DNA of 64,000 bases from Candidatus Polarisedimenticolia bacterium (GTDB lineage: Bacteria; Acidobacteriota; Polarisedimenticolia; Gp22-AA2; AA152): assembly GCA_036004685.1 (NCBI GenBank), contig DASYRE010000031.1, positions 186,001 to 250,000 on the forward strand, written 5' to 3'. The notes below the pieces were generated by a model. The model did not search any database and was not told the origin of the DNA. It was given only the letters and a program-made list of their open reading frames with translations. How positions within the stretch are numbered: the stretch's first letter is position 1; each line of letters begins with the position of its first letter. The position numbers and the translations under genes are program-made. Below are positions 28,655 to 39,562 of the stretch, one piece after another.

Positions 28655-29959
28655 TCAAACCCGCTCGATGAGAATCGCCGCGCCCTGGCCGCCCCCCACA
28701 CAGAGCGTCGCGAGCCCGAGATCCTTGCCGCGGCGCGCCAGCTCGTGGCAGAGCGTGAGGACGAGCCGCGCGCCGGTACAGCCGACCGGATGCCCGAGCG
28801 CGATCGCCCCGCCGTTGACGTTCGTCACGCTCCGATCGATCTCCCCGATCGGGGAAGCGAGCCCGAGCTCCTTCTCCGCGAACTCCTGGGAGGCGAACGC
28901 CCGCTCGCAGGCGATGACCTGGGCGGCGAAGGCCTCGTTGATTTCGATGAGCTTCACGTCCCGGAACGCCGCTCCGCCCCGCCGCAGGGCGATCGGGGTG
29001 GCGTAGGCGGGGCCGAGCCCCATCGTCGCCGGATCGCAGCCGGCAAAACCCCAGGAGCGGATGCGCCCCAGGATCGCCACGCCCGCCTCGCGGGCGCGCT
29101 CCTCCGACGCCAGGACGAGGGCGGCGGCTCCGTCGGTGATCTGGCTGCTGTTCCCCGCCGTCACCGTGCCGAAGCGGCGGTCGAAGACGGGACGCAGCTT
29201 CGCCAGCGCCTCGAGGCTCTGATTCGGCCGAAACCCGATGTCGTCGGCCACCGCGTCGCCGTAGGCCGGCGGCAGGAAGACCGGCGCGATCTCCTCCCGG
29301 AACCGCCCCGACTCGGTGGCCCGCGCGACGCGCCGGTGGCTCTCCAGGGCGAAACGGTCCTGCTCCTCCCGGGGGATGTGGAAGCGCTTCGCCAGGACTT
29401 CGGCCGTCTCGCCCATGTTGAGCCCCGCGACGGGATCGGTGAGCCCGACCTCCAGCGCCACCACCGGCTTGAAGTGCCGCGGCCGGAGCTTCATGAAGAT
29501 CGACATCCGCCGCCAGAAGGAGCGGGCGCGGCCCGCCTCGAGGAAGAGGTCCTGGGTCTCCGGGCGGTAGAAAAAGGGGATCTGCGACATCGACTCGGTC
29601 CCTCCCGCCACGACGACGTCGGCGAGGCCCGATTCGATCCGCAGCGCGGCCTCGACGATCGCCTGGATCCCGGAGGCGCAGTTCCGGTTCACGGTGTAGG
29701 CGGGAGTCGACCGGGGGAGCGCGGAGCGCAGCGCGATCACCCGCGCGACGTTCGTGGCGTCGGCCGGCTGGGCGATGTTCCCGAAGATGACTTCATCGAC
29801 CTCTCCGGGATCCAGGGTCGAGCGGGCGATCGCCTCGGAGGCGGCGATCCGCCCGAGATCCCAGGCCGGAATCCGCCGGAGCGCCCCCCACGCCTTCGCG
29901 AACGGAGTGCGGGCCCCCCCCACGATGACGGCGCGGCGCGACGCGCTCACGGCTGCCAC
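28655..29959 (-). CDS. fadI: Acetyl-CoA acyltransferase (thiolase), beta-oxidation
   Basis: A 434-residue thiolase. The acyl-accepting Cys94 lies in NRNCASGIQA, the catalytic His in ALGHPVGCTGAR and the second Cys in LCVGGGQGAA. It splits 3-ketoacyl-CoA to acetyl-CoA and a shortened acyl-CoA, completing the cycle with FadJ. It starts at a GTG that shares its first G with the TAG stop of the NtrC-type regulator gene, and it ends one base before the fadJ start. The order thiolase then FadJ matches fadIJ-type operons. Confidence 0.93.
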   Translation of the reverse strand: MAAVSASRRAVIVGGARTPFAKAWGALRRIPAWDLGRIAASEAIARSTLDPGEVDEVIFGNIAQPADATNVARVIALRSALPRSTPAYTVNRNCASGIQAIVEAALRIESGLADVVVAGGTESMSQIPFFYRPETQDLFLEAGRARSFWRRMSIFMKLRPRHFKPVVALEVGLTDPVAGLNMGETAEVLAKRFHIPREEQDRFALESHRRVARATESGRFREEIAPVFLPPAYGDAVADDIGFRPNQSLEALAKLRPVFDRRFGTVTAGNSSQITDGAAALVLASEERAREAGVAILGRIRSWGFAGCDPATMGLGPAYATPIALRRGGAAFRDVKLIEINEAFAAQVIACERAFASQEFAEKELGLASPIGEIDRSVTNVNGGAIALGHPVGCTGARLVLTLCHELARRGKDLGLATLCVGGGQGAAILIERV

Positions 29960-31362
29960 TACTCGCCCGATCCGCCTTCAGGTCGCGGCGGCGGCGCGGC
30001 GTCGCGACCGTGCTTCTCCAGACCGTATTGCTCCAGCTTCTTATAGAGGTTGCTGCGGGGGGTGTCGATCGCCTTGGCGGTGGCGGAGATGTTCCAGTCG
30101 TTCTCCTTGAGCTTGTCCTGAAGGAACTGGCGCTCCGTCGCCTCCTTGAACTCCTGCAGCGTGCGGAACTGGGAGAGGGAGGGCGCCGGCCCGGCCGTGA
30201 TGGGGCTGCGGATCGCCGCAAGATCGGAGAGCGTGATCTCGTCCTCGTCGGCCAGGATGAGGAGGCGCTCCACCGCCCCCTTCAGCTCCCGCACGTTCCC
30301 CCGCCAGGGAAGGGAGGCGAGCTCACGGAGCGCTTCCGCGGAGAAGCGCTTGGGGCGGCGGTTGTTCTCGGAGCAGAACCGCCGCGTAAAATGCTCGATC
30401 AGCAGAGGGATGTCGCCCTTCCTTTCCCGCAAGGGAGGAACCGCGATGAGCAGCGTATTGATCCGGAAGTAGAGGTCCTCGCGAAACCGGCCCTCGCGGA
30501 TTTCGGCTTCGAGGATCTTGTTGGTCGCGGCCAGGACGCGGACGTCGACGTGGAGCGTCTTCGGCATCCCGACCGGCTCCACCTCGCCGTCCTGCAGCAC
30601 GCGCAGGACCTTGGCCTGGGTCCGCGGGCTCATGTCCGCCACCTCGTCCAGGAATATGGTCCCGCCGTCCGCCTGGACGAACTTCCCCGTCTGCCGGGCG
30701 ACGGCGCCGGTGAAAGCCCCTTTCTCGTGCCCGAACAGCTCACTCTCGATGAGCTCCTCGGGAATCGCCGCGCAGTTCACCTTGACGAAGGGGCGATCGC
30801 GCCGCTGGCTCAGCCGGTAGATCTCCCAGGCGACGAGCTCCTTGCCGGTTCCGCTTTCGCCGGTGAGCAGCACGGTGGCGTTGGTGGGCGCGATCTTGCC
30901 CACCGAGGCGCGGACCTTCTGGATGGCGGGAGAGTCGCCGACCAGCTCGTACCGCGACCCTTTCTCCGCCTTGAGCGATCGGTTCTCCTCCGACAGGCGC
31001 CGGTGCTGCAGCGCGTTGCGGATGGACGTCAGCACCCGGCCTTCCTCCAGCGGCTTCTCCAGGAAGTCGAACGCCCCCTTCTTGGTGGCCTCCACGGCGG
31101 TCGCGACGGTGCCGTGCCCCGAGATCATGACGATCTCGGCGCTCTCCTCGCGCTCCTTCAGCCGGGACAGGACCTCGATCCCATCCATTTGCGGCATCTT
31201 GATGTCGAGCAGAATCACGTCGGGCTCTTCCTTCCGGGCCAGCTCCAGCCCTTCCTGCGGGCTGGCGGCGACGCTGCAGAGATATCCTTCGTACTCCAGG
31301 ATCATCCGGAGCGATTTGCGGATGTCTTCTTCATCGTCGATGACGAGGATGCGCGGTTTCAT
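29959..31362 (-). CDS. NtrC-family sigma-54-dependent response regulator
   Basis: A 467-residue activator. The receiver domain has Asp9-Asp10 and phospho-acceptor Asp53 in VILLDIKMP. The AAA+ domain has Walker A GESGTGKE (168-175) and the sigma-54 contact loop GAFTGA (215-220), then the Walker B segment GTIFLDEV. A Fis-type helix-turn-helix closes the protein (ISATAKAIDTPRSNLYKKLEQYGL). No kinase gene adjoins it. It heads an overlapping chain with thiolase, fadJ and a membrane protein, suggesting that it controls or responds to fatty-acid use. No convincing ribosome site precedes the ATG, and a TAGAAT lies only about 10 bases upstream, so a leaderless start is possible. Confidence 0.94.
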   Translation of the reverse strand: MKPRILVIDDEEDIRKSLRMILEYEGYLCSVAASPQEGLELARKEEPDVILLDIKMPQMDGIEVLSRLKEREESAEIVMISGHGTVATAVEATKKGAFDFLEKPLEEGRVLTSIRNALQHRRLSEENRSLKAEKGSRYELVGDSPAIQKVRASVGKIAPTNATVLLTGESGTGKELVAWEIYRLSQRRDRPFVKVNCAAIPEELIESELFGHEKGAFTGAVARQTGKFVQADGGTIFLDEVADMSPRTQAKVLRVLQDGEVEPVGMPKTLHVDVRVLAATNKILEAEIREGRFREDLYFRINTLLIAVPPLRERKGDIPLLIEHFTRRFCSENNRRPKRFSAEALRELASLPWRGNVRELKGAVERLLILADEDEITLSDLAAIRSPITAGPAPSLSQFRTLQEFKEATERQFLQDKLKENDWNISATAKAIDTPRSNLYKKLEQYGLEKHGRDAAPPPRPEGGSGE

Positions 31363-31461: not shown

Positions 31462-33015
31462 TTATTCTTCCGTGGCGCGGATCACCACGAACCGCCAGGT
31501 GTCCCGGTTGGCGTCGTAGACCCGGAACAGCACTTTCGAGCCGGCCCGGACCTTGGCCATCTCGCGCCGGTACTCCGCCACGCTGGACACCGGCGTCCGG
31601 TTCACCGAAGTGATGATGTTGCCGCGGCCGATCCCCTGCTCGAAGGCTTCGCTCGCCTGCGAGACGTCGGTCACGACCACGCCGGTCACGTCGTCTCCCA
31701 CGTCCATCTGCCGGCGGATCTCGGTGCTGAGGTTGTCGACCGTGATCCCCAGGCGCTTCTCGCCCTGGCCTTCCTGGTCCTCCCCGCCCTGGGATCGCGC
31801 CTGCTTGGTCGCGTTCATGTGCTCGCCCCGGTCCTCCAGCCGCGCCGTAACGACCACGGGGCGGCCGTCGCGGATCAGGTTCAGGCGGACCCGGCTGCCG
31901 GGCTCGCGGGCGGAGATGATCTTCACCAGCTCGTCCGTGGTGGCGACCGGCTTGCCCTCGACTCCCACGATGACGTCGCCGGGGCGGATGCCGGCCTTGT
32001 CGCCGGGCAGGCCCTTGTCGACGTCCTGGACCAGCGCTCCGCGGCCGTCCTTCAGGCCGAACGCGTCCCGCAGATCGGCGCTGACGTTCTGGAGCTTGAT
32101 GCCGAGGTAGCCTCGCGAAACGTGCCCCGAGGCCTTGAGCTGGGGCAGGATCTCCTTCGCGGTGTTGATCGGGACCGCGAATCCGATCCCCTGGCCGACG
32201 CTCGAGATGGCGCTGTTGACGCCGACCACCTCGCCGGCGACGTTCAGGAGCGGGCCTCCGCTGTTGCCGAAATTGATGGCGGCGTCGGTCTGGATGAATT
32301 CATCCAGCGAAGGATCCTTGGAAAGCTCGCTGAGCTTCCTCTTCTTCGCCGACACCACGCCGACCGTCACCGTATGCTCGTAGTAATACGGATTGCCGAC
32401 CGCAATCACCCACTCCCCCACGCGCAGCGTGTCGGAATCCCCCAGCGGCACCGTGGGAAGCTTGTGTTCGGAGGTGATCTTGATGAGCGCCAAGTCGGTG
32501 CTGGGATCGGTGCCCACCACGTCGGCCCGGTACTCCGTGTCATCGTCGGTCAGGTTGACCCGGATCTTGTCGGCCCCTTCGATGACGTGGTAGTTGGTGA
32601 TGATGTAGCCGTCTTCGGTGATGATGAAGCCCGACCCGCCGGAGTCCTCGCGGCGAGGCTCCTCACGGCCCGGCCGGCGGCGGTTGTCGGGTCCGAAGAA
32701 GAACTCGAACGGACTATGAAACGGGGTGCCGCCGCCCCCCTTGTTGGAGTCGACCATCTCCGTCGAAATGATGCTGACCACCGCCGGGTTGACCTTTTCG
32801 ACGATGTCGGCGAACGACGGATAACCGGGCCGGCTGGTGGCGCCCCCCAGCTGGGCGGGCACCGGCGCGGGCGCCAGCTTCAGCGAGGCGGGCCGCATCT
32901 CCGGCTCGGCGAGCGAGACGGGAGAGAGCCGGACGCCGCCCGCCAGGACCATTCCGAACAGAATGGAGGCGGCGGCGACGAGTGAAAATGTCACGAGTTG
33001 GGCCTTCTTTTTCAT
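31462..33015 (-). CDS. htrA: HtrA/DegP-family periplasmic serine protease
   Basis: A 517-residue membrane-anchored or exported protease-chaperone that degrades misfolded envelope proteins. An N-terminal hydrophobic segment (residues 6-27) is followed by a trypsin-like domain with triad His143 (TNYHVIEG), Asp174 (STDLALIKI) and Ser252 (FGNSGGPLL), then two PDZ domains (~285-375 and ~405-510). The linker after the first 90 residues is Gly/Arg-rich, as in DegP Q-loops. The ATG at 33015 begins the signal-like sequence with AAGGAG upstream; GTG/ATG at 33051/33048 are alternatives. A strong promoter and a strong terminator bracket it as a single-gene unit. Confidence 0.95.
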   Translation of the reverse strand: MKKKAQLVTFSLVAAASILFGMVLAGGVRLSPVSLAEPEMRPASLKLAPAPVPAQLGGATSRPGYPSFADIVEKVNPAVVSIISTEMVDSNKGGGGTPFHSPFEFFFGPDNRRRPGREEPRREDSGGSGFIITEDGYIITNYHVIEGADKIRVNLTDDDTEYRADVVGTDPSTDLALIKITSEHKLPTVPLGDSDTLRVGEWVIAVGNPYYYEHTVTVGVVSAKKRKLSELSKDPSLDEFIQTDAAINFGNSGGPLLNVAGEVVGVNSAISSVGQGIGFAVPINTAKEILPQLKASGHVSRGYLGIKLQNVSADLRDAFGLKDGRGALVQDVDKGLPGDKAGIRPGDVIVGVEGKPVATTDELVKIISAREPGSRVRLNLIRDGRPVVVTARLEDRGEHMNATKQARSQGGEDQEGQGEKRLGITVDNLSTEIRRQMDVGDDVTGVVVTDVSQASEAFEQGIGRGNIITSVNRTPVSSVAEYRREMAKVRAGSKVLFRVYDANRDTWRFVVIRATEE

Positions 33016-33066: not shown

Positions 33067-33095
33067 AGTATAGGTCGCAAGGGCGCTTACTTCAA
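33067..33095 (-). promoter_or_regulatory. Sigma-70-type promoter of htrA
   Basis: On the minus strand TTGAAG (33090-33095), a 17-base spacer and TATACT (33067-33072) lie about 50 bases before the htrA start. Confidence 0.75.
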
Positions 33096-33147: not shown

Positions 33148-33555
33148 TCAGGAGCCCGCCGGACGTCCGCCGCCGTTCTCCCGGGAGGCTCCCGGGAGAA
33201 GAATGGCCGCCACCTCCTTGAGCAGCTTCGAGATGTCGACCGGCTTCGAAAAGACCCGCCGAATCCCCAGCCGGCGGGCCTCCTCCAGAATCTCCGGAGT
33301 GGCGAAAGCGGTCACCAGAAGGCAGGCAGCGTCGAAATCCCGTTTCCTGAGACTCCTGAGGACTTCCAGGCCGTTCGGCCCGGGCATTCGATAGTCCAGA
33401 ATCACGACGCGGGCGTCGCGATGGTTCTCGAGGTTCTTCTCGGCCGCGGCGCCGCTCGGCTCGAGCCACGGAGCGTAACCAGCGCGCTGGAACAGGCGCT
33501 CGTAGCAGCGCCGTACTGCCGGATCGTCCTCGATGATCAGGATCTTGCCCTGCAT
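33148..33555 (-). CDS. Single-domain response regulator (receiver only)
   Basis: A 135-residue CheY-like protein. The acidic pocket is Glu9-Asp10-Asp11, the phospho-acceptor is Asp54 in VVILDYRMPG, with Thr82 in LLVTAFA and Lys104 in VFSKPVD. There is no output domain, only a short Gly/Arg-rich tail, so it works by binding partners or as a phosphate sink or relay. The ATG at 33555 is preceded by a perfect sigma-54 promoter (33591-33606). The gene lies directly downstream of the sigma-54 activator gene 33714-35093. Receptor or effector partners are unknown. Confidence 0.9.
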   Translation of the reverse strand: MQGKILIIEDDPAVRRCYERLFQRAGYAPWLEPSGAAAEKNLENHRDARVVILDYRMPGPNGLEVLRSLRKRDFDAACLLVTAFATPEILEEARRLGIRRVFSKPVDISKLLKEVAAILLPGASRENGGGRPAGS

Positions 33556-33590: not shown

Positions 33591-33606
33591 AGCAACCGTC
33601 GTGCCA
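33591..33606 (-). promoter_or_regulatory. Sigma-54 (RpoN) promoter of the receiver gene
   Basis: The minus strand reads TGGCACG-ACGG-TTGCT, an exact match to the -24/-12 consensus TGGCACG-N4-TTGCW. Predicted transcription start is near 33580, giving a 25-base leader before the receiver ATG. Confidence 0.85.
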
Positions 33607-33636
33607 GACAGCGGCGGCTGGGCCGGCCGCGCAACT

Positions 33637-33662
33637 GCCTGCTGAAAATAGGCTTGCTGAAA
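33637..33662 (-). promoter_or_regulatory. Tandem repeat, candidate enhancer for the sigma-54 activator
   Basis: GC-Y-TGCTGAAA occurs twice, at 33637-33647 and 33652-33662, with a 15-base period. The copies lie about 57-82 bases upstream of the predicted sigma-54 start, close to where NtrC-type activators bind. The activator gene itself ends 50 bases further upstream. Confidence 0.5.
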
Positions 33663-33713
33663 GGGGCTGGAATCCGGAGCGCGGAGCAGCGTCAAAATGG
33701 CTTCGTTCGGGCG

Positions 33714-39562
<5,849 letters not shown>

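Follow-up and report, generated by a model that had tools for sequence, protein, structure and literature searches.

The sigma-54 promoter preceding the gene of a stand-alone receiver (REC) most probably (about 0.7, judged from the sequence) serves as the output promoter of a conserved two-component module, in which the signal would pass from a histidine kinase (HK) to an NtrC-type activator (EBP1) and from it to REC. The window, i.e., the whole analysed DNA stretch of 64 kb, contains all genes of this module (Table 1). A second predicted target of EBP1, the gene of a stand-alone sigma-70 region-4 protein (sigma-4), is located elsewhere in the genome.

Table 1. Features of the proposed sigma-54 module in the window and of its second predicted target
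Feature	Position	Strand	Basis
EBP2, second NtrC-type response regulator, syntenic, with a different HTH	29959..31362	-	Pfam, synteny, HTH comparison
HtrA/DegP-family serine protease, next gene downstream of REC	31462..33015	-	NCBIfam TIGR02037 over cut-off; syntenic class-wide
Sigma-70-like promoter TTGAAG-N17-TATACT before htrA	33067..33095	-	
REC, single-domain receiver, 135 aa	33151..33555	-	Pfam Response_reg, E 2.4e-20
Sigma-54 -24/-12 promoter TGGCACGACGGTTGCT	33591..33606	-	Exact match; orthologous position kept in relatives
Tandem repeat TTTCAGCARGC, two copies	33637..33662	-	Present, not conserved
Palindrome GCCATTTTGACGC, candidate EBP1 binding site	33689..33701	-	Kept in relatives, leave-one-out test
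EBP1, NtrC-type response regulator (receiver, sigma-54 AAA+ domain, Fis-type HTH)	33714..35093	-	Pfam; GSFTGA loop
HK, histidine kinase (HisKA + HATPase_c), probable EBP1 partner	38090..39562	-	Pfam; synteny
Sigma-4 gene of the source genome, 117 aa	G000:C35:14211-14561 (= L289:6209-6562)	- in L289	Behind sigma-54 promoter

The promoter element TGGCACGACGGTTGCT (TGGCACG-ACGG-TTGCT) ends 36 nt upstream of the REC start codon ATG at 33555 and matches TGGCACG-N4-TTGCW exactly, with GG and GC at fixed spacing, which confirms the central observation of the original prediction. No second exact match occurs in the window; the 3.84-Mb genome contains three such sites in all, as well as 36 sites with one mismatch. 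Gene rpoN is present in a single copy in the source genome and was detected in 38 of the 41 genomes of the class.

In nearly all of the 21 genomes scored, which represent one class of Acidobacteriota, a sigma-54 site recurs approximately 37-62 nt upstream of the matched receiver start, each time between the genes of EBP1 and the HtrA protease. Its scores range from 7.7 to 20.2 bits, which are relative rather than absolute values because the matrix was modelled on the published consensus; 19 of the 21 reach at least 10.5 bits, the 99th percentile of shuffles being 10.7, and the weakest receiver promoters belong to genomes G016 (7.7 bits) and G026 (9.5 bits). Eight neighbouring genes of the same loci, used as a control, yielded scores of -5.2 to 9.3 bits. 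A chance look-alike in a G+C-rich genome would be consistent with the genome-wide count of 39 sites carrying one mismatch or none, versus 26 in the backward control, but the conservation at the orthologous position, together with the gene order, in six families of the class, as well as the lack of such a site at the neighbouring genes, make this explanation highly improbable, and it was rejected. Judging by this conservation, the predicted -24/-12 promoter before REC is real.

The gene ending just upstream of the promoter encodes, as had been anticipated, an NtrC-type activator, namely, the complete receiver-AAA+-Fis protein EBP1, whose sigma-54 loop is GSFTGA here and GAFTGA or GSFTGA in relatives. 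Every one of the 21 relatives in which the locus was placed by tblastn shows the order EBP1-REC-HtrA, and the usual wider block is HK-ligA-EBP1-REC-HtrA-EBP2-thiolase-FadB. The gene of HK, a protein with two membrane segments (recognized by eye), is separated from EBP1 by ligA; in nearly all relatives it precedes ligA-EBP1, and EBP2 is present next in the block wherever the contig reaches. The pairing of HK with EBP1 is a probable one, based on synteny. The only terminator-like site nearby is located inside REC and is no better than those given by shuffles; therefore, sigma-54-dependent read-through into htrA is possible.

The original prediction placed the activator sites in a tandem repeat upstream of the promoter. 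Two copies of TTTCAGCA(A/G)GC, at 33637-33647 and 33652-33662, do occur at 15-base spacing; when the intergenic region is shuffled, comparable repeats arise in 3.6% of cases, and the window contains 33 of them (0.5 per kb). The proposed check of conservation in related genomes gave a negative result for the repeat: the motif TTTCAGCARGC is absent from all 20 relatives examined, those of the same family included, for which reason it was rejected as an activator site. As far as these genomes indicate, the repeat is private to the source genome. For the originally proposed cascade, leading from a kinase through an activator and sigma-54 to the receiver, the check gave a positive result with respect to the gene order and the promoter, but not to the activator sites.

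The likely activator site, missed in the original prediction, is the palindrome GCCATTTTGACGC, located directly past the EBP1 stop codon, with its centre approximately 113 bp upstream of the predicted start. The consensus is GCGYCA-N3-TGRCGC, with the core G(C/T)CA-N3-TG(A/G)C usually enclosed in GCG...CGC and an A+T-rich centre. In leave-one-out tests, where the matrix was learned from the other genomes, the palindrome exceeded the 99th percentile of shuffles (11.0) in 18 of 21 cases; in the remaining three (G001, G011 and G038) the core palindrome is visible, the copy in G011 being located farther upstream. The distance between palindrome and promoter varies among relatives from approximately 48 to 231 bp.

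The palindrome is conserved across the class, as are the DNA-binding helices of EBP1, the last of which (GNRTRAAEILGIGLRTLQRKLKEY) are near invariant, while the corresponding helix of EBP2 is quite different. Because of this and of the position of the palindrome right after the EBP1 stop codon, we infer with good reason that EBP1 binds it. Another activator, either EBP2 or a protein encoded elsewhere, could drive the promoter instead: EBP2 is syntenic too, EBP1 has 13 matches in the source genome at E<=1e-100, itself included, and similar GYCA-N3-TGRC sites precede unrelated genes. Such a replacement of EBP1 is nevertheless rather unlikely, given that the palindrome adjoins EBP1 and is kept together with its HTH, from which that of EBP2 differs.

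Searched for alone, the palindrome is too common genome-wide and is informative only when paired with a sigma-54 site. Sites of the GYCA-N3-TGRC type are also present at flgB, S24/S26-peptidase and MoxR-ATPase genes and may serve further activators of the class as well. A sigma-54 site with a palindrome of this type upstream was found at a flgB-like flagellar gene, L363 (G027:C69:6402-6468). Genes of S24/S26 signal-peptidase-like proteins in four genomes (L213, L214, L225 and L226) have in common a sigma-54 site together with a GYCA-N3-TGRC palindrome centred on GC, and this set may represent the regulon of another activator. In the source genome, two palindromes were found upstream of the gene of a MoxR-type AAA+ ATPase, L220/L031 (G000:C48:108808-108913), in addition to a sigma-54 site, and the related genes of Ser/Thr protein kinases L209 (G040) and L222 (G033) also have a sigma-54 site and a palindrome upstream.

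REC has orthologues in 21 further genomes out of the 41 of its class; in a sample of 199 genomes from the phylum, no match of the same level was detected outside the class. The protein contains the acidic pair, phospho-Asp, Ser/Thr and Lys of a receiver and has no output domain; residues D10, D11, D54, S/T82 and K104 are kept in all 22 sequences, that of the window included. Identity across families is approximately 35-40% for REC versus approximately 60% for EBP1. The description of REC as a 'CheY-like' regulator holds only with respect to the fold; REC is a single-domain receiver with a clade of its own, separate from those of the EBP1 and EBP2 receivers. Its origin as a duplicate of either of these receivers is not supported by this topology, in which the branches between clades are long, and the separate clade indicates an old component rather than a recent copy.

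The locus block persists without REC in families f3, f4 and f10. In f10 (G022 and G019), the palindrome and the sigma-54 site are located directly before htrA, and in G009 (L287:1080-1510) both are intact, while the receiver has decayed to the remnant SEAIRDEAAPLGVAGLIGKPVEAAR. Since REC is missing from about half of the class, the module appears to work without it; these absences carry some doubt because the genomes are mostly incomplete.

As for the function of REC, a phosphate-accepting sink or relay is the more likely role, as all phosphorylation residues are kept, unlike in FixT and Osp. FixT of Caulobacter and Sinorhizobium, induced by FixLJ, has no acidic pair and is not phosphorylated (PMC7078487); Osp of Rhodobacter sphaeroides, driven by CtrA, has lost the acidic pair and the lysine and is not phosphorylated either (PMC9430884). 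REC might be an inhibitor of this type, which would bind the kinase and block its autophosphorylation while itself unphosphorylated. The wiring is the same, these single-domain receivers being induced by the system they inhibit (PMC7078487, PMC9430884), and the sequence of REC changes faster than those of the neighbouring genes, which could be expected of an accessory modulator. The absence of the acidic pair, characteristic of these inhibitors, does not extend to REC, in which all five positions are conserved, and we consider inhibition without phosphorylation improbable, at roughly one chance in four.

Phosphorylated REC may alternatively act outside the loop, on an unrelated target such as a polysaccharide enzyme, a motility part or a protease adaptor, with sigma-54 timing its supply. 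Single-domain receivers often act in this way, known examples being an activator of a phosphoglycosyl transferase (PMC12802240) and EpsW (PMC4671073); the REC clade, not copied from the receiver of EBP1, fits this option as well. No target gene, however, travels with REC except the HK-EBP1-HtrA-EBP2 block, which is also found without REC, so that an external target seems somewhat unlikely, although less so than inhibition of the FixT/Osp type.

The regulon was probed by sequence patterns, namely, the palindrome combined with the sigma-54 site, across the class. The search returned the receiver promoters and further genes; at a spacing of 20-50 bp, 30 matches were obtained versus 6 for a control with the reversed pattern. 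Eleven of the 30 belong to two genes, namely, nine in family f4, located upstream of the sigma-4 gene, and two in f10, located upstream of htrA. The sigma-4 protein, 117-119 aa long, has orthologues in most genomes of the class and matches only regions 3.2-4 of RpoD/RpoS. Outside the class, its matches in the 199-genome phylum sample are parts of longer sigma factors, and the stand-alone form is, on this sampling, class-restricted. A sigma-54 site precedes the start of the gene in 29 of the 30 copies examined. The palindrome is present upstream in the f1 copies and nearly all f4 copies; in many other copies it is weaker or variant, and in several families it is imperfect or missing. In the source genome, the sigma-4 gene is followed by genes of a TPR protein and a TonB-like protein. 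EBP1 probably controls a small sigma-54 regulon comprising REC, perhaps with htrA, and the sigma-4 protein.

In the proposed circuit, HK would sense a signal, probably at the cell envelope, and phosphorylate EBP1. Phosphorylated EBP1 would bind the palindrome and open the RNA polymerase-sigma-54 complex at the -24/-12 site, resulting in the synthesis of REC. Read-through from the REC promoter could yield additional HtrA, besides that made from the sigma-70-like promoter of htrA itself, and the sigma-4 gene would probably be driven by EBP1 as well. REC would then take phosphoryl groups from HK and damp or relay the signal, acting as an inducible phosphate sink or branch. The presence of HtrA, judged by its protein family, suggests envelope protein stress as a possible signal.

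A broader reading, which we put forward tentatively and hold to be rather less than an even chance, is that of a class-wide circuit in which one NtrC-type activator would produce, via sigma-54, both a phosphorylatable lone receiver and a sigma-4 protein retooling RNA polymerase, the latter either by supplying one half of a split sigma factor or by competing at the beta flap. If true, this would represent a sigma-54-to-sigma-fragment cascade with built-in receiver feedback. The data point to an undescribed signalling circuit. Sigma-54 seems to be little known in Acidobacteriota, which are unmentioned in the main text of a 2025 survey of sigma-54 regulons (PMC12316311), and an activator, a candidate operator sequence and target genes can now be named for a whole class of this phylum. 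The analysis also leads to a conserved sigma-4-only protein, whose effect on RNA polymerase is a testable question.

Compared with known systems, HK and EBP1 resemble AtoSC and ZraSR, which likewise combine a histidine kinase with a receiver-AAA+-Fis activator of sigma-54. In NCBIfam, they match AtoC and AtoS best, and ZraR and ZraS also rank near the top, but all scores are below the curated cut-offs (AtoC 458.9 of 714 bits, ZraR 368.1 of 760, AtoS 197.8 of 646 and ZraS 157.9 of 479), and the predicted targets here differ, being a single-domain receiver, HtrA and the sigma-4 protein. For a sigma-4-only protein of this kind, SigO-RsoA was the only case found in the literature searched; there, too, the sigma-4 domain resides on a separate protein, whereas here no sigma-2 partner was identified and the Acidobacteriota protein resembles regions 3.2-4 of the RpoD/RpoS type. 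Similar to FixT, the gene of REC would be switched on by its own two-component system, but by a predicted sigma-54 activator instead of FixLJ, and its product retains the phosphorylation residues. Osp also has a receiver fold, and its induction depends on the very response regulator that it restrains, via an operator conserved across its clade; unlike CtrA-driven Osp, REC would depend on sigma-54 and has kept the acidic pair and the lysine. REC would thus represent the counterpart of FixT and Osp under sigma-54 control, with a receiver that can probably be phosphorylated.
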